From positions 1 through 64,000 of the forward strand of contig JAJYZC010000002.1 of NCBI GenBank assembly GCA_021800255.1: a stretch of DNA of 64,000 bases, in the 5' to 3' direction. The stretch comes from Acidobacteriota bacterium. Lineage in GTDB: Bacteria; Acidobacteriota; Terriglobia; Terriglobales; Acidobacteriaceae. Positions 1,500 to 46,388 of the stretch are shown piece by piece. The notes beneath the pieces were generated by a model. The model was given only the letters and a program-made list of their open reading frames with translations, was not told the origin of the DNA and ran no database searches. Numbering within the stretch: the first letter of the stretch is position 1; every line of letters starts with the position of its first letter. A program made the translations under genes and the position numbers.

Positions 1500-1793
1500 T
1501 TAGACCGCAACTTCTGGGAACTTTAGCCGACTCGGAGGAACAATCTGGGAACTTTCCCTGTTCGCCCACTCGCCGGCAGCGTTTTTCGGTTCCCGATCCA
1601 GCAGTACATTGACGGCACGACGCTGCGCGATGCGCTTCTGCTCCATGCCCGCCTGCGCGTAGACCTCCATCGTGGTGCTGACCTTGGCGTGGCGCATCAG
1701 TTCCTGAACCACCTTCACATCCTTGCCGGTTGAAGCGGCAGGGAGCTGTAAGTGCGGCGGGACGTATGCCAGCCAATCCGTTTCGTAAGAAGC
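1500..1793 (-). pseudogene. Tyrosine recombinase (integrase), 3' remnant with frameshift
   Basis: Reading leftward from about 1793, one frame gives RIGWHTSRRTYSSL, the box with the catalytic Arg of phage-type integrases. After a frame change near 1740 another frame gives DVKVVQELMRHAKVSTTMEVY, the box with the conserved His-Ala and the nucleophilic Tyr. Intact relatives have these joined in one frame, so there is a small indel between them, and the N-terminal two thirds are missing. The remnant ends 16 bases from the 3' end of tRNA-Ala, the usual position of an island integrase. The intact relative would have catalysed integration into the tRNA gene. Confidence 0.75.
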
Positions 1794-1876
1794 TGTTTAC
1801 GATCTATGGTCCAGGTGCGGCGAGGGTATCCTGGCAGCTATATGCGCCGGCTTCTCCGGGACGGTAATCAAGGAGG

Positions 1877-2170
1877 ATGGAACGGAGAAGAGCCTATCCA
1901 AGCGACATAGGCCGGGAGCAGTCTGAAGCCATTCGTCCCATCCTGGAGGGCGTTCGCAGGCGCACCAAGCCGCGCACGGTAGATTTGCATGCAGCCTTCA
2001 ACGCCGTGCTGCACGTGCTTAAGAGCGGCTGCCAATGGCGCATGCTTCCCGAAGAATTCTCCCATTGGGTCGCGGTGTATTCGTATTTTGCCACGTGGAG
2101 CGCACCCCAGGCGGACAGAGTGAGCGCCCTGGAGCGGGCCCTAGAAAAAAATCGGTTGGCGAGGCCGTGA
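1877..2170 (+). pseudogene. IS5-family transposase, N-terminal remnant
   Basis: The 97-residue frame starts MERRRAYPSDI and carries KSGCQWRMLP, typical of the first half of IS5/IS427-group transposases (DUF4096). It binds DNA ends in intact elements. At 2146 there is a run of seven A residues (GAAAAAAATCGG), the sort of slippery site at which these elements shift frame to make the full transposase. The shifted frame reads KKSVGEAV, as expected, but stops within about 16 codons. The DDE catalytic domain is therefore absent and the element is dead. Confidence 0.75.
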
Positions 2171-2335
2171 TTGCCGGCATTGGGTTTCGGTGACGGCAGA
2201 AACCACCTTTCAAGACACGCCTATTTGCTTCGCTATTCGCCTCAGCGGTGGTTTCATCCCATGTGGCGGGTTACCACACAGATGCAAAAAACGGGACGGC
2301 AGAATTTGCAAAATCCGGTTTTGATCGGTTATTTT

Positions 2336-2349
2336 ACTAACTGGTTAGT
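2336..2349. promoter_or_regulatory. Probable operator of the TetR-type repressor
   Basis: ACTAAC-TG-GTTAGT is a perfect inverted repeat ending seven bases before the ATG of the TetR-family gene. Its position over the start region and its symmetry fit autorepression of the downstream efflux operon. This is an inference from position and family habit. Confidence 0.55.
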
Positions 2350-2355
2350 TAATTT

Positions 2356-3105
2356 ATGTCGTCCCACTCTACCCTCGATCCTGGCGCTGACCGCGCAGCC
2401 GAAACGCGCGCCCGCATCCTGGAAGCCGCCCTGGCCGAGTTCGCCGCCAGCGGCCTTGCCGGCGCACGCACGGAGCGTATCGCCGCCGCCGCAGGCGTCA
2501 ACAAGGCCCTCCTCTACTACTACTTCGAAAGCAAAGAAAAGCTCTATCTCGCGGCCTTCGAGATGGTGGCCGGCCGTGTCCGCGACAGCTCCATGGCCGT
2601 TTTTCTGCGCGACGCCAGCCCCGGCGAGAAGCTGCTGCGCACGGCCTTGAACCATTTTGACCGCATCCTCACCCAGCGCGAGTTCCAGAGCTTGATGCAG
2701 CAGGAGATGATGCGCATCCACGAGGAGCAGGGCGCCTTGCCGATTCTCGTCAAGCGCGTCTTCGAGCCGATGCATACCATGTTTCAAACCATCATGCGCG
2801 AGGGCATCGCATCCGGCGAGCTGATCGAGGCCGACTGGATGCAGATCGCTCTGGCCGCGCTCGGAGCCAACGTCTTTTATTTCCTCAGCGCGCCGGTCTG
2901 GCGGCTCATCATGCGCTTCGAGCCCTTCGCTCCCGAAGCCCTGCGGGCGCGGAGGACCGCACTAGTGGAGTTTCTGGGGCAAGCAATCTTCACCGACCGC
3001 GAGCGCGGCGCCGAGCTCGCCCGCCGCGTGCTCGCCGATACGCCCATGCCCGCCGGCGAATTCAGCACCGGCAAATTTCCGGGAATCGAGGTGAATAGCG
3101 AATGA
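2356..3105 (+). CDS. TetR/AcrR-family transcriptional regulator
   Basis: The 249-residue protein has an N-terminal helix-turn-helix (about residues 15-60) with the family signature TERIAAAAGVNKALLYYYFESKEKLY. The rest is a helical ligand-binding domain that varies between family members. It is the first gene of a four-gene operon with HlyD, ABC ATPase and ABC-2 permease genes that overlap one another by four bases (ATGA junctions), so it most likely represses this exporter and releases it on binding a substrate. A palindrome lies directly upstream of its start. The last residues, after about 235, look disordered. The inducer is unknown. Confidence 0.88.
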   Translation: MSSHSTLDPGADRAAETRARILEAALAEFAASGLAGARTERIAAAAGVNKALLYYYFESKEKLYLAAFEMVAGRVRDSSMAVFLRDASPGEKLLRTALNHFDRILTQREFQSLMQQEMMRIHEEQGALPILVKRVFEPMHTMFQTIMREGIASGELIEADWMQIALAALGANVFYFLSAPVWRLIMRFEPFAPEALRARRTALVEFLGQAIFTDRERGAELARRVLADTPMPAGEFSTGKFPGIEVNSE

Positions 3106-4166
3106 ACCCGCGTAATCGAGTTTTTCTCATTCTGGGGCTGCTCACTCTGGGGTCGCTGATCTTTTACCTGGTCACCGTGCCACGCTCCAACGAGCTTCAG
3201 GTCATCGGCACCGTGGACGCCAACGAGGTGATCGTCAGCTCCAAAATTCCCGGCCGCATCCAGAAGCTGACCGTGGTGGAGGGCCAAAAGGTAAACGCGG
3301 GAGAGCTGATCGCGACGATTGAATGCCGCGATTTGAAGGCCGCGCTCGCGGCCGCCCAGGCCACCGTGGCCGGCGACCGCTGGAAGCTGAGCGAGGCCCA
3401 AGAAACCGTACACCAGAACCGCGGCGAAACCAGCAGCGCCACACTGGCCGCAGAAGCTCAGGTGCGGTCAGCCCAGGCGGCAATCGCTGAGGCGCAGGCC
3501 CAATACGACCGCCAGCAAGCCGACACCAGCCGCGACGTTGCGTTGGCGAAGATGGGCATCGTAAGCGCCCAAACCAGGGACGAGCAGGTGGCCAGCCTGC
3601 AACAAGACGAGGCGGCCGTGGCCGCAGCCCGAGCGAACCTAGCGGCGGCGCAGAACAACCTGCGTCAGTCGCGCGCACACCAGTTGCTCACCGACGTCTC
3701 CGAACGCACCGTCGCCCAGAACCGCTTCGACCTCGAAAACGCCGCCGATCTGGCCCAGGAAGCTGCCGTGGAATTAAGCTATGCGCGCATCGTGGCCCCG
3801 GTCAGCGGCATCGTCAACGAATGGGCCTCTCGCCAGGGCGAAGTAGTGGCCGCGGGAACGCCCATCGTCACCATCATGGACCTGAAACAGACCTGGGTCT
3901 ACGCGCCGGTTCCGGAGACTGACGCCGACGCCGTCAAGCTCGGCGACAAGCTGCGCGTCGTCATGCCCAGCGGAGCCACAGTCTTCGGCGAGGTTATCGC
4001 CAAGGCTCCGGAGGCCGACTTCGCCACCGAGCGCGATGTGAGCCGCAGAAAGCGTGACATCAAAACCGTGCAGTTCAAGCTGCTCATCCCCAATCCCGGC
4101 GAGAAGTTCGTGCCCGGCATGACGGCCCAGATTTACATTCCCACGAGCTGGCTGGTGCGCAAATGA
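3102..4166 (+). CDS. HlyD-family periplasmic adaptor (membrane fusion protein)
   Basis: This 354-residue protein starts with a membrane anchor (residues 7-26), then a biotinyl-lipoyl-like half (VIVSSKIPGRIQKLTVVEGQKVNAGELIA, about 45-72), a long Ala/Gln/Glu-rich coiled coil (about 80-225), the second half of the lipoyl fold (ARIVAPVSGIVNEW) and a beta-barrel domain. Such proteins bridge an inner-membrane ABC exporter to an outer-membrane channel. Its start overlaps the TetR stop and its stop overlaps the ABC gene start, so the genes are co-translated. The closest remembered arrangement is ybhG-ybhF-ybhS-ybhR of E. coli, but no TolC-like channel is encoded here. Confidence 0.9.
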   Translation: MNPRNRVFLILGLLTLGSLIFYLVTVPRSNELQVIGTVDANEVIVSSKIPGRIQKLTVVEGQKVNAGELIATIECRDLKAALAAAQATVAGDRWKLSEAQETVHQNRGETSSATLAAEAQVRSAQAAIAEAQAQYDRQQADTSRDVALAKMGIVSAQTRDEQVASLQQDEAAVAAARANLAAAQNNLRQSRAHQLLTDVSERTVAQNRFDLENAADLAQEAAVELSYARIVAPVSGIVNEWASRQGEVVAAGTPIVTIMDLKQTWVYAPVPETDADAVKLGDKLRVVMPSGATVFGEVIAKAPEADFATERDVSRRKRDIKTVQFKLLIPNPGEKFVPGMTAQIYIPTSWLVRK

Positions 4167-5218
4167 CCGCTCCCGCCATCAACGGCCGCGCGCCCGACAG
4201 CGGCGCAGCCGCGCGCCCCATCGCCATGGCCGTCGAGCGCATCGTCAAACGCTACGGTGACTTTGAAGCGGTGAAAAACATCAGCTTCAGCGTGGCCGAG
4301 GGCGAGATCTTCGGCCTGCTCGGCCCGAACGGCGCTGGCAAGAGCACCCTCATCCGCATGATGACCACGCTCATTCCCGTCACCGCCGGCAAGGCCACGG
4401 TGGCCGGCCACGACGTAAGCAAAGATCCCGATGACGTGCGCCGCATGATTGGCGTCATTCCTCAGGCGCTCACCAGCGACCCCGACCTCACGGTCGAAGA
4501 AAACCTCTCGATCTACGCCAAGCTCTACAGCGTGCCGCGCGCCAAACGCGAAAAAAACATCGTCGAGGTCCTTGAGGCGGTGGACCTGCTCAAGTGGCGC
4601 GGCGCGCCCACCAAGACCCTCTCCGGCGGCATGAGACGCAGGCTGGAGATCGCTCGCGGTCTGGTTCACGATCCACGCATCTTCTTTCTCGATGAGCCCA
4701 CCACCGGCCTCGATCCGGTTTCGCGCATAGCCGTTTGGGAGATGCTCAACCATCTCAAGTCCACCCGCAACCTCACCATGCTGCTCACCACGCACTACAT
4801 GGAAGAGGCCGACAAGCTCTGCGACCGCATCGCCATTGTGGACCATGGCAACCTGGTGGCGCTGGGCACGCCCGTCGAGCTCAAAAACAGTGTGGCCGGG
4901 GCTAACGTGGTCGAAGTGCAGTTCGACCGCGAGGACGAGGAGTGGCGAGAGCGGCTGGAAAGGCTCACCGGCGTAACCAGCGTGCAGCCCGAGAGCGCCG
5001 GCTTTTACCGCGTCATCACCACCTCGGGATCGAAGACCACCATGGAGCTGGTGGAGATGGCCGCGCAGCTCGGCGAATCGCTTGCCTCGCTCAGCGTGCA
5101 AAACACCTCCCTGGACGACGTTTTCGTCCACTACACGGGCCGCCAATTACGCGATGAACAGGTAAAAGCGCAAATGGCTTCGTGGGCCATGATGCCCTCG
5201 CGGGGTGGACAGCCATGA
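4163..5218 (+). CDS. ABC transporter ATP-binding protein (drug/lipid exporter type)
   Basis: The 351-residue protein contains a Walker A motif GPNGAGKST (Lys60), the signature LSGGMRRRLEIARGL, Walker B FFLDEPTTGLD and the H-loop His in LLTTHYMEEAD. The last 90 residues form the C-terminal extension common in CcmA/YbhF-type ATPases. It powers the permease encoded by the overlapping next gene, using ATP to export a substrate handed to the HlyD-like adaptor. The substrate cannot be told from sequence. A single nucleotide-binding domain is present, so it works as a homodimer. Confidence 0.93.
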   Translation: MTAPAINGRAPDSGAAARPIAMAVERIVKRYGDFEAVKNISFSVAEGEIFGLLGPNGAGKSTLIRMMTTLIPVTAGKATVAGHDVSKDPDDVRRMIGVIPQALTSDPDLTVEENLSIYAKLYSVPRAKREKNIVEVLEAVDLLKWRGAPTKTLSGGMRRRLEIARGLVHDPRIFFLDEPTTGLDPVSRIAVWEMLNHLKSTRNLTMLLTTHYMEEADKLCDRIAIVDHGNLVALGTPVELKNSVAGANVVEVQFDREDEEWRERLERLTGVTSVQPESAGFYRVITTSGSKTTMELVEMAAQLGESLASLSVQNTSLDDVFVHYTGRQLRDEQVKAQMASWAMMPSRGGQP

Positions 5219-6327
5219 ACCGCATGCTGGCCATCATCGAGCGCGAGATGCGCAAGTTCTTCCGCTCCCCCGTCCTCATGCTCATGTCCATGATGCTGCC
5301 TCTGGTGCAGCTCATCATCCTGGGCAACGCCTTTGGCGGCAAGATCGTCAACGCCCGCGTGGGCCTGGTGGATTACGATCACGGACCGGAAGCGGTGAAG
5401 GTCGAACAGGCGTTCGCCGCCGTCAACGCCACCATCAAAACCTTCAAAATCATTCCCTACGACAACGAACGGCTGGCGCGCCTGGCCGTGCAGACCGGCA
5501 AGCTCGACGCCGCCGTCGTCATCCCCGCGCAATATTCGCGCCGCGTCGAGGCCGGCGACGACGCCGAGATCGGCTTGGTCGTCGACAACTCCGACCAGTT
5601 CATGTCCGGCAGTCTCGAGTCGGAGATGCAGTCGCTCGTGAACGCGCTCAACGCCCCGCTCATTCCTGCGCCCATCAACAACCAGATCGCCCTGGATATC
5701 GTCGAGCTTTACCCTTACATCTCCTACATGAAGTTCCTGCTCCCCGGTCTGGTGGCTCTGGCCATGTATGTCTCGGTCATGATCGGCGGGGGCATGTTGT
5801 ACATCGACGACAAGGCCCGCGGCGTGCATGAGGGCTACCTGGTCACGCCCATCACGCGCCTGGAGCTGGTGCTGGGCATGAACATCGCCGGCGCTCTCAA
5901 GGCCATCCTCTCCGGCATCTCGCTGGCCGTCATCGGCACCCTGATGGCCGGCTTAGGCTCCATCTTTCACCCCATGCAGGACCTTGCCATGCTGGCGGTC
6001 ATCGTAGTCACCTCCATGGCCTTCAACGGCATGATGTTCCTGATGATGGTGCGCGTCGACGATCCCCTGGTGCCGCGCGCCATGTTCGGGGTGCTGAACA
6101 CGCTCTTGTTCTTTCCTTCGGGGGCCATCTATCCCATTGCGGCTTTTCCGCGCTGGCTGCACGTGATCGCTGTCGCCGACCCCTTTACCTACGCCGTGCA
6201 CGGTCTTCAGCAGGTCATGATCAAAGGCGCCGGCTTCGCCTCCATCTACCAGGACCTTTTATTTCTGGCCGCCTTCGGCATCAGCACACTGATGATCGCC
6301 ACGCCGCTGTTCAAGCGTACGTTGTAA
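5215..6327 (+). CDS. ABC-2 type permease of the efflux operon
   Basis: Starting at the ATG that overlaps the previous stop, the product has 370 residues. There is one N-terminal membrane helix, a long periplasmic loop (about residues 45-170) and five C-terminal helices, the usual ABC-2 fold. The motif PITRLELVLGMNIAGALKAI lies at the coupling-helix region. An in-frame ATG 33 bases upstream also exists but lies deep in the ATPase gene. Only one permease gene is present, while ybh-like operons have two, so the permease probably forms a homodimer. Confidence 0.9.
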   Translation: MNRMLAIIEREMRKFFRSPVLMLMSMMLPLVQLIILGNAFGGKIVNARVGLVDYDHGPEAVKVEQAFAAVNATIKTFKIIPYDNERLARLAVQTGKLDAAVVIPAQYSRRVEAGDDAEIGLVVDNSDQFMSGSLESEMQSLVNALNAPLIPAPINNQIALDIVELYPYISYMKFLLPGLVALAMYVSVMIGGGMLYIDDKARGVHEGYLVTPITRLELVLGMNIAGALKAILSGISLAVIGTLMAGLGSIFHPMQDLAMLAVIVVTSMAFNGMMFLMMVRVDDPLVPRAMFGVLNTLLFFPSGAIYPIAAFPRWLHVIAVADPFTYAVHGLQQVMIKGAGFASIYQDLLFLAAFGISTLMIATPLFKRTL

Positions 6328-6366
6328 AGGATTGTTTGCTGCCATGGCTGGGGCTTGTGCGGGGCT

Positions 6367-6618
6367 TCAGGCAAAGTAACTGATGCTGCTCACGGGAGTG
6401 TCCTGGGACGGATCGGGACTGGCCGTGCTTTCTTCGCCGGCCAATTCCTCTTTTTCGTCTTCTTCGGTCTCCGCGCCCTTCCGGGCCCCGCGCGAGTAGC
6501 TATCGTCACCGGCCTGGGCCGTCCCTTCAATGTCAAAGAGCGCCGAGAGCTGCGGTTCGGCCGGCTGGACCTTCACCGCGGGCAGTGCGTGGATGGCAGG
6601 GATGGGGCCGATCTGCAT
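6367..6618 (-). CDS. Small acidic protein of unknown function
   Basis: The frame has 83 residues and a GAGG ribosome site nine bases before its ATG. The N-terminal part (MQIGPIPAIHALPAVKV, then SALFDIEGTA) looks folded or conserved. The C-terminal half is rich in Glu, Asp and Ser and probably disordered. It lies tail-to-tail with the efflux operon. A plus-strand frame also covers this stretch but is Arg/Gly-rich and looks like a shadow. I do not recognise a family; calling it real rests on the ribosome site and plausible composition. Confidence 0.5.
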   Translation of the reverse strand: MQIGPIPAIHALPAVKVQPAEPQLSALFDIEGTAQAGDDSYSRGARKGAETEEDEKEELAGEESTASPDPSQDTPVSSISYFA

Positions 6619-6743
6619 GGCGCGTCCTCGTGCGCAGCTTCTTCCGCTCTACTTCATCGGCAGAAAGGCGTGAGACTTTAACCTGTGCGCACAACTGCAT
6701 TGAACCTGGGAGGGCGGCCGGCGAACCTTGCTAGACTGAAGCC

Positions 6744-7067
6744 ATGATGGATGAACAGGAGTTCCGGCGCGCGGCTGAATCCGCTCTCGACGCCCTCAAA
6801 CAGCACCTGATCGAGCGCGCGGAAGACGAAGACGCCGGCTTCGACGTGGAGGAGCAGAGCGGCGCCCTCAACGTGCTCTTTGAGGAACTCGGCGACAAGT
6901 TCGTGATCACTCCCAATTCGCCCGTGCGCCAGATTTGGGTCTCCGCGCTGGCCACCAGCTTCAAGCTGGATTGGGATGCGGCCGCGAACGCCTTCGTGCT
7001 GCCTCGCAGCGGCGAAACCTTGATCGCGCTCATCGACCGGCTGATCCGCGAACATCTGGAAGATTAG
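6744..7067 (+). CDS. cyaY: Frataxin-like iron donor protein CyaY
   Basis: The 107-residue protein matches frataxin length and layout. An acidic first helix (EFRRAAESALDALKQHLIERAEDEDAGFDVEE) is followed by beta strands with the family signature PVRQIWVSALATSFKLDW. Frataxins bind iron on the acidic ridge and modulate Fe-S cluster assembly in the cytoplasm. No isc or suf genes are nearby. The gene stands alone between two minus-strand genes. Confidence 0.8.
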   Translation: MMDEQEFRRAAESALDALKQHLIERAEDEDAGFDVEEQSGALNVLFEELGDKFVITPNSPVRQIWVSALATSFKLDWDAAANAFVLPRSGETLIALIDRLIREHLED

Positions 7068-42978: not shown

Positions 42979-43240
42979 CCAGAGCAGAGCAGCCGGCCCC
43001 CCAACATCCCGCCTGGAGGCGAGATGCCAGTTTTTATAGGACGGTTGCCAGGGGCGGAGGTAATCCGCCCGCGAATGCATGACCTCTCTTTCATTGAATT
43101 ACCATAGCCTGCGCCGCTTGCCGCAACGAAACCGGCGCCCCCAGCCGACGCCGGAGCGGACGCCAGCGTAGTTTTGGTAGTGGGTCAGTTTGAATTTCTC
43201 TGCGCTTGCGACGTTTCGCCAGATGGATCACACTGAAATC

Positions 43241-43480
43241 ATGCCAAAGAAGTCCGAACACGATTTTGCCGTGAATGCGTTTAGAGTGGTCGAGCAGGCG
43301 ATAGGCGAGCACATGGACGGGACACCGCTAGAGAGTCCAGACACAGGCAAGAATCCGGCGGCAGTTGCTCTCGGAAAGCTCGGCGGCGCTAAAGGTGGTC
43401 GAGCAAGAGCCGCAAAGCTCTCGTCTTCTAAACGCAAAGCGATAGCGCGAAAGGCTGCCAAATCCCGCTGGCAGTCGTGA
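43241..43480 (+). CDS. Small basic protein with a GGxKGGxARA-RW motif
   Basis: From ATG 43241 the product has 79 residues (in-frame ATGs at 43190 and 43223 are possible). The C-terminal half reads KNPAAVALGKLGGAKGGRARAAKLSSSKRKAIARKAAKSRW, a short basic motif I have seen in many small bacterial proteins of unknown role, possibly nucleic-acid binding. It is the first gene of the transposon, just inside the left inverted repeat, and precedes the toxin-antitoxin promoter. Confidence 0.65.
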   Translation: MPKKSEHDFAVNAFRVVEQAIGEHMDGTPLESPDTGKNPAAVALGKLGGAKGGRARAAKLSSSKRKAIARKAAKSRWQS

Positions 43481-43481
43481 A

Positions 43482-43570
43482 TTGTCCTTAAGACAACTTT
43501 TGTCTTGACAGCAAAACAAATCTAATTTATCGTTAGGGACAATTGTTGTCCGTGGGACACACGTTGTCCC
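43482..43570 (+). promoter_or_regulatory. Promoter with palindromic operators of the toxin-antitoxin pair
   Basis: A -35 TTGACA (43505-43510) and -10 TATCGT (43528-43533) are 17 bases apart. Downstream lie GGACAA-TTG-TTGTCC (43537-43551) and GGGACA-CACGT-TGTCCC (43554-43570), centred about 18 bases apart, and upstream TTGTC-CTTAA-GACAA (43482-43496). The repeated half-site GGACA fits binding by an HTH dimer such as the MqsA-like protein encoded next. The regulatory role is inferred. Confidence 0.65.
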
Positions 43571-43590
43571 AAAACAGGAGGGCCACCCCC

Positions 43591-43986
43591 GTGACAGACG
43601 ACCCAGAGCTGAGGTTTGAATACGTTGGGCCGATGCCGAGAGAGAAGAAGGTTATTTCAAGCCTTCCGGCAGCGCTATCGGCAGAGAATCTTCACCTGAT
43701 TATCAAAAAGGCCTGGTCTATCGGGCGCTATCAGATCACCAATCACTTTCGGGTTCGAGCAAGGGAAAGGGGATTCGATGTTCTCGATGCTGAAAATGCG
43801 ATTCGCCGAGGCAGGACACGAGGAGAACCTGAATACTGTGCAGATTTCTTGAACTGGAAATGCCGCGTCATCGGCCCAGTCGAAGGTAGGTTTTTGGAAG
43901 TCGTAGTTGCCTTGGACGACTTCGAGGATTACGTGGAATGTCCTTTAATCATTCCGATCACTGGCTACTGGAGGGAAAGCTACTAA
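43591..43986 (+). CDS. DUF4258 protein, probable toxin of the pair
   Basis: The chosen start is a GTG at 43591 ten bases after AGGAGGG; the frame is open to 43543 but overlaps the operators. The 131-residue product has the DUF4258 core AWSIGRYQITNHFRVRARERGFDVLDAENAIRRGR and RVIGPVEGRFLEVVVALDD. DUF4258 proteins are small RelE/MqsR-like folds often found before YgiT-type antitoxin genes. The next gene is exactly such an antitoxin. RNA-cleaving activity is suggested by family and context only; no residues can be proved catalytic. Confidence 0.75.
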   Translation: MTDDPELRFEYVGPMPREKKVISSLPAALSAENLHLIIKKAWSIGRYQITNHFRVRARERGFDVLDAENAIRRGRTRGEPEYCADFLNWKCRVIGPVEGRFLEVVVALDDFEDYVECPLIIPITGYWRESY

Positions 43987-44020
43987 TGTCCCGTACATGG
44001 CCGTGTATGTGGAGGTGCTT

Positions 44021-44644
44021 ATGAGCAATACCGTGTTGCAAGCTAAGTTTGTCGATGAATCTGCTTGTGTGAGGAAGTGCTACGACTGCGGAAAAATGAT
44101 GCGTGGAAGGAGGGAGAATTACAACTACGCAGAGTGCGGATTGCGCAACGTTGTGCTATTGAACATTCTCGTGTTCCACTGCAAGTGCGGTGCAATTGTT
44201 CCTGAAATTCCTGCCCCGGCTGCACTGCACGCAGCCATTGCAATGGCTGTCCTCAGCAAAAAGACTCTGCTCTCGTCTGAGGAGATTCGTTTTACCCGGA
44301 AAGTTGCTGGATATACAGCGACGGAGTTTTCAAAAGTGCTCGGGGTACTTAACACGAGCGTCTCGCATTGGGAAACCGGCAATAAGCCAATTGGGAAAGA
44401 TTCCGATAGGCTGGTTCGGCTAGTGTGCTTTATGCGAATGATGGAGAACGTCGCTGGATCGGATTATGGCTTGCCAGAAAAAGTTAGCCTTCTAGCGAAG
44501 ATGACAGAGACGATGAACCTAACATCGCTTCTTGAACAAATCGAGGATCGCGCAGGAGGTTCTGAATTGGTAAGGATTGATCCAGAATCCCTTTTCCTCT
44601 GTGGTAGTCCAACCGAAACTCCAGAATTCGCTACGGTCCAATAA
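44021..44644 (+). CDS. MqsA/YgiT-type zinc-finger HTH protein, probable antitoxin
   Basis: The start is the ATG at 44021, behind GGAGG; the ATG at 43997 lacks one. The 207-residue protein has zinc-binding cysteines (CVRKCYDCGK ... HCKCG), then an XRE-type helix-turn-helix: RFTRKVAGYTATEFSKVLGVLNTSVSHWETGNKP. This is the MqsA plan: an N-terminal zinc domain that holds the toxin and a C-terminal DNA-binding domain that represses the operon. It is longer than E. coli MqsA by a C-terminal helical tail of about 70 residues. It ends just before a terminator. Confidence 0.8.
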   Translation: MSNTVLQAKFVDESACVRKCYDCGKMMRGRRENYNYAECGLRNVVLLNILVFHCKCGAIVPEIPAPAALHAAIAMAVLSKKTLLSSEEIRFTRKVAGYTATEFSKVLGVLNTSVSHWETGNKPIGKDSDRLVRLVCFMRMMENVAGSDYGLPEKVSLLAKMTETMNLTSLLEQIEDRAGGSELVRIDPESLFLCGSPTETPEFATVQ

Positions 44645-44654
44645 CCAATCCTCA

Positions 44655-44690
44655 ATGCACTCACTGGTTCCATACCGTGAGTGCATTTTT
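44655..44690 (+). terminator. Rho-independent terminator of the toxin-antitoxin operon
   Basis: ATGCACTCAC (44655-44664) pairs exactly with GTGAGTGCAT (44677-44686) and is followed by TTTTT. It closes the operon and insulates it from the transposase promoter that starts four bases later. Confidence 0.85.
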
Positions 44691-44693
44691 GTC

Positions 44694-44722
44694 TTGACTA
44701 TACTTGAACGCTAAAGCATAAT
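44694..44722 (+). promoter_or_regulatory. Transposase promoter giving a nearly leaderless transcript
   Basis: TTGACT (44694-44699) and CATAAT (44717-44722) are 17 bases apart. The transposase ATG follows only seven bases after the -10 box, so the mRNA would start at or next to the start codon. No ribosome site is present. Confidence 0.65.
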
Positions 44723-44729
44723 AGTCAGT

Positions 44730-45596
44730 ATGAATTTACTGGGCACATCTCAAAAAGTCCAAGTGGTCAAATGCCTCTGCGAAGGTCTTAGCATACGCAG
44801 CACGGTGCGACTGACCGGCGCGGCAAAGAACACCGTGGTCGGACTACTGGTCGATATGGGGATGGTCTGCTCGAACCTGCATGACCGCACGGTGCGTGGC
44901 GTAAAGGCGCGGCGTTTGCAGTGCGATGAAATCTGGTCATTCGTGGGCGCAAAGAAGAAGAACGCGACTCCTGAGCAAAAGGCTGAGGGCTGGGGTGACA
45001 TATGGACATGGACCGCGATTGATGCGGAGAGCAAACTGTGCGTCACGTACTTTGTGGGGGCGCGGGATACGGAAACAGCAACATCGTTTGCTTGCGACCT
45101 GCGAGAGCGGGTTACCGGCAAGCCGCAGATTACAACAGATTCCCTCAAGTCCTACTTGACGGCCATCGAAATTGCTTTTGGATCGAATGTGAACTATGCG
45201 CAGATGCACAAGATTTACGGCGCATCCGATGATCCAGATGCACGGTATTCACCGGCCACATGCATCGGCTGCGATATGAAAACTGTCATCGGAAGCCCCG
45301 ATTACGAGCACGTCAGCACATCATATGTGGAGCGCCAGAACCTCACAATGCGCATGTCAATGCGCCGGTTTACCCGCCTGACTAATGGATTTTCAAAGAA
45401 GATCGAGAACCATGCGGCTGCAATCTCGCTCTACTTCGCGTTCTACAACTTCTGCCGCGTTCACCAAACGCTGCGCGTTACTCCTGCCATGCAGGCCGGT
45501 TTGACGGATCACGTTTGGGAGGTTGAGGAATTGGTTTCCCTGCTGCCTCAGCCAGAAGCGAAGAAGCGCGGGCCGTATAAAAAACGGGTAAACTAA
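44730..45596 (+). CDS. IS1-family DDE transposase
   Basis: The 288-residue protein has an N-terminal HTH (EGLSIRSTVRLTGAAKNTVVGLL), then the catalytic triad Asp66 (LQCDEIWSFVG), Asp137 (ITTDSLKSY) and Glu201 (STSYVERQNLTMRM). The segments WGDIWTWTAID and NHAAAISLYFAFYNFCRVHQTLRVTPAM are typical of IS1-type transposases encoded in one frame. Its end motif is basic (KKRGPYKKRVN). It should move the surrounding 3.08-kb element, whose 8-bp target repeat fits the family. All catalytic residues are present. Confidence 0.93.
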   Translation: MNLLGTSQKVQVVKCLCEGLSIRSTVRLTGAAKNTVVGLLVDMGMVCSNLHDRTVRGVKARRLQCDEIWSFVGAKKKNATPEQKAEGWGDIWTWTAIDAESKLCVTYFVGARDTETATSFACDLRERVTGKPQITTDSLKSYLTAIEIAFGSNVNYAQMHKIYGASDDPDARYSPATCIGCDMKTVIGSPDYEHVSTSYVERQNLTMRMSMRRFTRLTNGFSKKIENHAAAISLYFAFYNFCRVHQTLRVTPAMQAGLTDHVWEVEELVSLLPQPEAKKRGPYKKRVN

Positions 45597-45675
45597 CGCC
45601 AAACACGTCGATGCCCCGACTGGCATCGGGGCACCCAATTTCCTTTGGTCCACAATCCAAGTCTAAAGGAGAATT

Positions 45676-45879
45676 GTGCCCGTGTTCAACAAATTTCTTC
45701 AATACGAAACCATCGAAGACAGCAGGCACCTTGGCGACTATCGCGTCGAAGCCATCGATACGCAGAGCGAAGGCGAAGTTTATACAACGATTTTCACCGG
45801 ACCTGATGCCCCCGCCCGCGCACAAGAATATGCCGACTGGAAGAATTCCAGCCGAGAGGAATTAGCTAAGGCGAGCTAA
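45676..45879 (+). CDS. Small passenger protein of unknown function
   Basis: The frame has 67 residues from a GTG at 45676 (or 65 from a GTG at 45682, better spaced from AAAGGAG). It reads NKFLQYETIEDSRHLGDYRVEAIDTQSEGEV, mainly acidic and likely a small alpha/beta fold. It sits between the transposase and a convergent gene inside the transposon. No family recognised. Confidence 0.55.
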   Translation: MPVFNKFLQYETIEDSRHLGDYRVEAIDTQSEGEVYTTIFTGPDAPARAQEYADWKNSSREELAKAS

Positions 45880-46196
45880 TAGGCGACGACTGCATCAACA
45901 AAATCAACGCACGTCTGCGGGCGCGAATGATCCGGCGCGGTGTGCCAAGCGCCGATGTCGATGATCTTCACATCGACGAGGGCGCTGATGTCGATACAAC
46001 GCCAGTTATCGGGAGAGCCGTCTGGTTGAATCGGTCGGCTGTTGCTCTGTCCCGCAAATTGATAGAAGAGTCCGTGCAATTTGCTATTTTTGGTTCCGAG
46101 AACATGTGGGCACATTTCTCTATATTGCCCATGATAGTAAGCTGAAATTCCGCGCTTCTCAAGAATTGCCTTTCGCACAAGTTCATAGGACGACAC
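45876..46196 (-). CDS. Passenger protein of unknown function
   Basis: The 106-residue frame ends tail-to-tail with the preceding gene, overlapping by four bases, and starts close to the right inverted repeat behind an AAAGGAG (46204-46210). It has well-mixed composition with VRKAILEKRGISAYYHGQYREMCPHVLG, FYQFAGQSNSRPI and VKIIDIGAWHTAP. I do not recognise the family with certainty; conserved Cys, His and Trp suggest a folded, conserved protein. Confidence 0.6.
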   Translation of the reverse strand: MSSYELVRKAILEKRGISAYYHGQYREMCPHVLGTKNSKLHGLFYQFAGQSNSRPIQPDGSPDNWRCIDISALVDVKIIDIGAWHTAPDHSRPQTCVDFVDAVVAY

Positions 46197-46388
46197 AGGG
46201 AATCTCCTTTGGGAAATGCCCGTATTTTACGCCCTAAAATTCAAACTGACCCACTACCGTAGTTTTGCCGCACGGCCCCCGTGGCGTAAAATGACCCCGC
46301 CTCCCAAATCCGCCCTTCGGCCGCCGCAAAAGCACCCGAGCGCCTTGGGCCGCCGAAACCGCAGGTCATCTTTAAGGAGAATATTGAA

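Follow-up and report, generated by a model that had tools for sequence, protein, structure and literature searches.

A 64,000-nucleotide stretch of an Acidobacteriota contig (JAJYZC010000002.1, here called the window) holds at positions 43176-46258 a single intact 3.1-kb element with a full-length transposase of the IS1 family of insertion sequences (ISs). A single pair of ends, GGTAGTGGGTCAGTTTGAA, with an exact 8-bp target duplication outside, encloses the transposase gene, a small gene that we call A and a variable middle. Judged from its sequence, the element is a transporter transposon of the IS1 superfamily and a member of a clade in which cargo is carried by default. We consider it likely that this is a unit transposon of a divergent IS1-superfamily branch with an exchangeable middle, occupied here by a probable MqsRA-type toxin-antitoxin cassette together with two further open reading frames (ORFs), E and F.

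The inverted ends of the element are complementary at all 22 positions and are bordered on both sides by the same 8-mer. When the whole window was scanned exhaustively for inverted arms of at least 14 bp, no more than 20 kb apart and with an exact 8-bp direct repeat outside them, this pair alone was returned. The G+C content is 51% within the element and 62% in the 5-kb flanks. An earlier prediction from the letters of the window (the original prediction) had proposed a whole IS1-type element with five extra genes; the perfect ends, exact repeat, intact transposase and differing G+C content bear out the first part of this proposal, and the transposase and five other ORFs do lie within the ends. 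A composite transposon was rejected on the grounds of a single transposase and a single pair of ends. The genome itself contains one full copy; another contig carries a second, distant fragment of a related transposase. The features are listed below, with the start codons of A and of the DUF4258 and MqsA-like genes chosen by ribosome-site-like sequences upstream.

43168-43175: left target-site duplication, GTAGTTTT, equal to 46259-46266
43176-43197, plus strand: left inverted end, GGTAGTGGGTCAGTTTGAATTT, 22/22 complementary to the right end
43241-43480, plus strand: core left-end gene A, start ATG at 43241, encoding a basic protein of 79 amino acids
43490-43570, plus strand: promoter-like site TTGACA-17-TATCGT (43505-43533) with three overlapping GACAA palindromes
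43591-43986, plus strand: DUF4258 protein of 131 amino acids, a probable MqsR-like toxin, start GTG at 43591 (PF14076, 1.2e-7)
44021-44644, plus strand: MqsA-family antitoxin-like protein, start ATG at 44021 (TIGR03830, 1.2e-15)
44656-44692, plus strand: terminator-like hairpin ATGCACTCAC...GTGAGTGCATTTTT after the antitoxin-like gene, read from the sequence as its loop exceeds the limit of the hairpin scan
44694-44722, plus strand: promoter-like site of the transposase gene, TTGACT-17-CATAAT, from a promoter scan
44730-45596, plus strand: single-ORF IS1-superfamily DDE transposase of 288 amino acids with D66, D137 and E201 (PF03400)
45676-45879, plus strand: passenger ORF E, 67 amino acids, an orphan with an AAGGAG-type ribosome site upstream
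45876-46196, minus strand: passenger ORF F, 106 amino acids, a conserved protein of unknown function
46237-46258, minus strand: right inverted end, 22/22 complementary to the left end
46259-46266: right target-site duplication, GTAGTTTT, equal to 43168-43175

The transposase is encoded by one uninterrupted frame and passes the Pfam model DDE_Tnp_IS1 (PF03400) at 34.5 bits (cut-off 24.1). IS1 was also its best NCBIfam family (NF033558, 61.7 bits, short of the equivalog cut-off of 100), with IS6 next at 34.4. A profile of 12 relatives aligned with InsAB' of Escherichia coli IS1 (hhalign E value 9.3e-10, with the start of the IS1 sequence confirmed against E. coli genomes), and this alignment placed D66, D137 and E201, which are invariant across the 12 relatives, on the IS1 catalytic residues. 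No direct sequence match was found among solved structures. The ends begin GGTAGTG, in keeping with the GGnnnTG pattern of the IS1 family, and the 8-bp target duplication, here and in relatives, fits the 8-9 bp of that family. The longer spacing between catalytic residues and the absence of cysteine pairs and of a frameshift place the protein in the IS1 superfamily but outside classical IS1, and we classify it as a divergent single-ORF member. Assignment to the IS1595 family was rejected because Pfam and NCBIfam both selected IS1. The element therefore resembles the IS1 family in its homologous DDE transposase, its GGnnnTG-type ends and its 8-bp duplication, whereas it differs in its 288-residue single ORF, its gap of 63 residues between D137 and E201, its length of 3.1 kb and its possession of cargo and gene A. 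The IS1 family also has single-ORF members and an ISMhu11-type subgroup with long members of up to about 4.6 kb; no paper naming this subgroup was found.

The element is one of many. Of 300 genomes from the taxonomic family, 121 contained its end sequence with up to two mismatches, and a reversed control pattern matched in only one of the genomes listed. A scan of 84,980 species genomes for the transposase gave 441 relatives, of which the best 80 loci were retained. Around such transposases a boundary finder, whose sole criteria were GGT...ACC, similarity of the ends and a duplication of 8 bp, delimited 56 distinct elements by the same ends and 8-bp duplications, the latter exact in all but one. 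These 56 elements are a lower bound since uncalled loci were often cut by contig ends or had diverged. The shortest measures 1.1 kb and the longest 6.7 kb (median 3.1 kb), and their 112 ends give the consensus GGTAGTGGGTCAGTTTGAAA, in which positions 1-3, 6 and 7 are invariant, the first three being imposed by the boundary finder. The hosts belong to Acidobacteriota, Pseudomonadota, Verrucomicrobiota and Planctomycetota and include Lysobacter, Sphingomonas and Rhodospirillaceae. The original prediction could put no name to an element of this build; elements of the same build are present in named isolates of Hoeflea, Acidiphilium and Mesorhizobium, on plasmids that have been sequenced.

Cargo had been regarded as an exception for this type of element. 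This view was not upheld, because 54 of the 56 delimited elements hold more than 1 kb besides the transposase (median of all 56, 2.2 kb), and only two, of 1085 and 1766 bp, hold less; short cargo-free elements were equally detectable by the boundary finder. Among 125 cargo ORFs, Pfam identified HTH_3 (13), Peptidase_M78 of the ImmA/IrrE type (11), P63C (4), Fic (3), STAND-like ATPase (3) and proteasome (3) domains, with single instances of GmrSD, DUF488, a DNA methylase and an OLD-like AAA protein; Schlafen AlbA was also present, and NCBIfam matched HigA-, spr1629- and SocA-type antitoxin models. Peptidase_M78 gave just 19 matches in 21 whole genomes of relatives, indicating strong over-representation in the cargo, although the two samples are unmatched. 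In the tree built from the 56 transposases, one M78 type, P63C and the AAA type arise as often as they have members, a second M78 type requires five changes for seven members, and proteasome-like cargo forms one clade. This distribution indicates that most modules have moved between carriers and that one has descended together with its transposase. The element with the transposase nearest to that of the window (L062, 75%) carries quite different cargo. The architecture of transposase gene, gene A and variable middle recurs at dozens of unrelated sites with the cargo exchanged.

The proteasome-like proteins, 300-347 amino acids long, owe their name to the N-terminus (TIAAGFV..G..I.AD). Ten elements, all from a single transposase clade, encode such a protein at their right end, in tail-to-tail orientation to the transposase gene (L064:3958-5001, L065:1865-2836, L067:4983-5927, L079:2498-3454 and six more); it is probably an N-terminal nucleophile hydrolase. 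Cargo ORFs of 421 amino acids in L010 and 390 in L027 are likely to be spurious antisense frames and were excluded as evidence. A plasmid element of Acidiphilium multivorum (L190:2767-5400 and 5383-6221) reaches on its right side to the 3' end of a gene annotated as RES-domain, beyond which lies an MbcA/ParS/Xre antitoxin gene. This RES/Xre pair adjoins the element and was rejected as cargo, since the delimited ends place it just outside, and it was not used as evidence.

All five extra genes had been taken for passengers. For the DUF4258, MqsA-like and F genes this stands, as homologues of each are known outside such elements, which qualifies the element as a transporter IS. For A it does not: a homologue was found in 49 of the 56 elements (with a model built from part of the same set), which makes A a core gene and, on this distribution, part of the element rather than a passenger. 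In 46 of these 49 elements A is co-directional with the transposase, and 39 homologues stop no more than 420 bp from the left end, reading inward. The proteins are small and basic with the motif GGxKGGxARA...IAxKAAxARW, and the structural model of A is a three-helix arrangement of low confidence (predicted template modelling score 0.32). In a Mesorhizobium loti element (L191), a gene annotated 'histone H1' occupies the position of A. A search of 60 relatives found the element end (up to three mismatches) just upstream of 7 of 17 near-full-length matches to A; among the remainder, several are close to where a contig stops or have an end that has diverged further. The KGG/ARW motif of A also occurs at the N-terminus of P63C cargo proteins (L066:2635-3708, L089, L101 and L136) and in a 366-residue frame elsewhere in the genome of the window (G000, contig C32:29934-30065), and may represent a common segment for binding DNA or a partner.

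The DUF4258 and MqsA-like genes form a pair that had been predicted to have its own promoter, and the two best promoter-like sites of the region are indeed those before the DUF4258 ORF and before the transposase gene. Palindromes with GACAA half-sites cover the first of these (43490-43506, 43537-43551 and 43554-43570), and 43490-43570 is probably an autoregulatory operator of the pair; several other DUF4258/MqsA pairs have upstream palindromes of different sequence. Homologues of DUF4258 were found in nine other genomes out of 250 searched, and an MqsA-like gene follows in all nine distinct loci read, excluding the near-copy described below. By sequence, the DUF4258 protein matched none of the solved structures significantly. 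A model built from nine sequences has a predicted aaabbbb fold (mean predicted local distance difference test score 80.6), for which the best match in the PDB is MqsR of the MqsR-MqsA complex 3hi2 (probability 0.92). In an alignment with nine homologues the MqsA-like protein has an N-terminal CxxCG...CxCG motif and a C-terminal helix-turn-helix (HTH); no direct sequence match was found for it among solved structures. In mqsRA the toxin gene likewise comes first (PMC6918082). The original identification as a toxin-antitoxin pair is probable on these features, and we regard an MqsRA-type module as the likely assignment. The pair resembles MqsRA (PMC6918082) in having the toxin first, a partner with a Cys motif and HTH, and MqsR as the best, though weak, structural match; it differs in having DUF4258 as the probable toxin, a putative antitoxin just below the family cut-off and CxC in place of CxxC.

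Among the remaining passengers, ORF E has no homologue among 200 genomes of the family. Homologues of ORF F were found in 11 other genomes of the family at 28-47% identity, and a recognisable element end was present at none of the nine of these loci that were read.

Evidence for movement of the element comes from a genome of another genus (G153), which contains a copy that is 99.4% identical over 2037 bp, up to the end of its contig. This copy keeps A, DUF4258, MqsA and the transposase start together within unrelated flanks. It has the same end motif but differs in sequence over the first ~86 bp, as far as the start of A. These features fit a recent transfer together with recombination inside the element.

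Several observations weigh against the interpretation of the element as an IS1-superfamily transposon carrying an MqsRA-type cassette. The transposase departs from IS1 in length and catalytic spacing, without a frameshift or an N-terminal zinc finger (no CxxC pair is present there), so the classical IS1 build of 0.7-1.2 kb with an insA/insB' -1 frameshift, a zinc finger and short D-E spacing is not seen. The structural match to MqsR is weak (E value 0.1, template modelling scores 0.44/0.56), the MqsA-like protein scores 57.4 bits against a curated TIGR03830 cut-off of 61.8, and it has CxC where most homologues have CxxC. Misassignment of the copy in G153 is possible, because it lies on a short contig (5.5 kb) from a metagenome bin. 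Finally, an empty site (expected to read ...CAGCGTAGTTTTGCCGC...) was not found when the joined flanks were compared with 80 genomes of the same genus, where the window alone matched both sides. Synteny through the neighbouring epimerase gave 29 orthologous loci, none with an element end, but these are not strict empty sites because the other neighbour is not conserved; the absence of a clean empty site reflects poorly kept synteny within the genus. Passenger genes at this place without the element ends, the observation by which the original prediction would fall, occurred in none of the relatives examined.

As to the role of the cassettes, anti-phage or anti-element defence rather than addiction, with the DUF4258/MqsA-like pair acting by abortive infection, is a somewhat unlikely alternative. 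In its favour, other elements carry GmrSD, OLD/AAA-like, DUF488, Fic, Schlafen AlbA and STAND-like ATPase proteins, and PADLOC matched GmrSD (HEC-06, 1.6e-166), the OLD/AAA-like protein (HEC-04, 1.4e-54) and DUF488 (PDC-M19A, 4.7e-29); PADLOC had no match for DUF4258, however, and gave weak HTH matches alone for its partner, and modules of this kind can serve both addiction and defence. It is improbable that the DUF4258/MqsA-like pair is instead a repressor and antagonist regulating the transposon. Such a role would suit its position directly before the transposase promoter and the HTH of the second protein, but the hairpin at 44656-44692 and a separate promoter part the pair from the transposase gene, sister elements do without the pair, DUF4258/MqsA genes also occur at loci without recognisable element ends, and the toxin-first order and MqsR-like model fit mqsRA.

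We attach little likelihood to accidental trapping of host genes by an ordinary IS1-family element, with no lasting link between element and cargo. DUF4258/MqsA pairs and homologues of ORF F do occur outside such elements, and at locus L178 a related element of 3188 bp (1792-4979, duplication CAACGGTC) lies directly upstream of a chromosomal DUF4258/MqsA pair (879-1741), an arrangement that illustrates a possible route by which this cargo might be captured. Against accidental trapping, cargo exceeding 1 kb is found in nearly every relative along with the core gene A and recurring types of module, and the near-copy in G153 has kept A, the pair and the transposase start together. Origin of the ends in two separate insertions with host genes between them is extremely improbable, as the perfect 22-bp ends with their perfect 8-bp duplication, the lower G+C content and the recurrence of the same architecture at dozens of sites speak against it and, apart from the failure to find an empty site, no evidence in support of it was found.

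For the transposon with an exchangeable middle that we favour, the DDE transposase would bind both ends and move everything in between, with a target cut staggered by 8 bp giving rise to the duplication. The A protein, being small, basic and helical, may bind DNA and either regulate transposition, as InsA does in IS1, or assist the complex at the ends. The middle would behave as an exchangeable cassette, in which the antitoxin may repress the pair's own promoter through the GACAA palindromes. A likely benefit is retention, in that a cell or replicon losing the element would free stable toxin; alternatively, the same cassette could serve defence. A wider proposal, which we hold to be plausible but put forward tentatively, is that a whole IS1-superfamily clade, spanning at least four phyla, has turned into a carrier of single exchangeable addiction or defence cassettes with A as its partner. 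In such a clade A would be a conserved DNA-binding partner at the left end, acting in transposition or in cassette retention, and cassettes would be exchanged by recombination inside the common ends and core. The near-identical copy in G153, with its hybrid left end, suggests such recombination.

Other cargo-bearing transposons share parts of this organization. Transporter ISs are derivatives of ISs that carry passenger genes (PMC3129680, PMC9330008) and likewise hold one transposase and passengers within a single pair of IS ends, whereas here there is cargo in nearly every member and a conserved small partner gene at one of the ends. Transposons of the Tn3 family carry toxin-antitoxin pairs of several types (PMC7157771), also as an exchangeable unit inside the transposon; by contrast, no Tn3-type TnpA and no resolvase or res site was recognised here, the duplication is 8 bp, and the pair has its own promoter and a position not tied to a resolvase. 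Defence cargo has also been described in Tn7-like transposons (PMC8649781), whose exchangeable cargo is similarly rich in toxin-antitoxin and defence genes, but the present elements measure 2-4 kb, have one transposase gene and show no recognised TnsB/C-type machinery. ISfinder aside, no account of an IS1-type clade that bears cargo alongside a conserved partner gene turned up in the literature searched.

IS1-type elements are usually seen as minimal parasites that consist of a transposase only. A clade with near-universal cargo and a fixed accessory gene would, if real, be a small and readily delimited vehicle for the transfer of toxin-antitoxin and defence genes among soil bacteria. As exact ends and duplications can be read, the cargo is listable without guesswork, and new defence or addiction modules, with the proteasome-like, P63C and F proteins as examples, may be reached through these elements. 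Whether addiction genes help a transposon to persist could also be tested on them directly.

Further variants of this organization were observed. An element of 2256 bp (L068:1671-3926) with perfect ends and an exact 8-bp duplication has A and HTH/M78 cargo without a transposase, and two elements of ~350 bp that resemble miniature inverted-repeat transposable elements (L038:1501-1851 and L044:1181-1522) have the same ends and exact 8-bp duplications; both kinds suggest mobilization in trans. At L118 two end pairs are nested, at 2504-6945 (4442 bp) and 3693-6922 (3230 bp), which suggests growth by insertion of one element into another or alternative use of ends.

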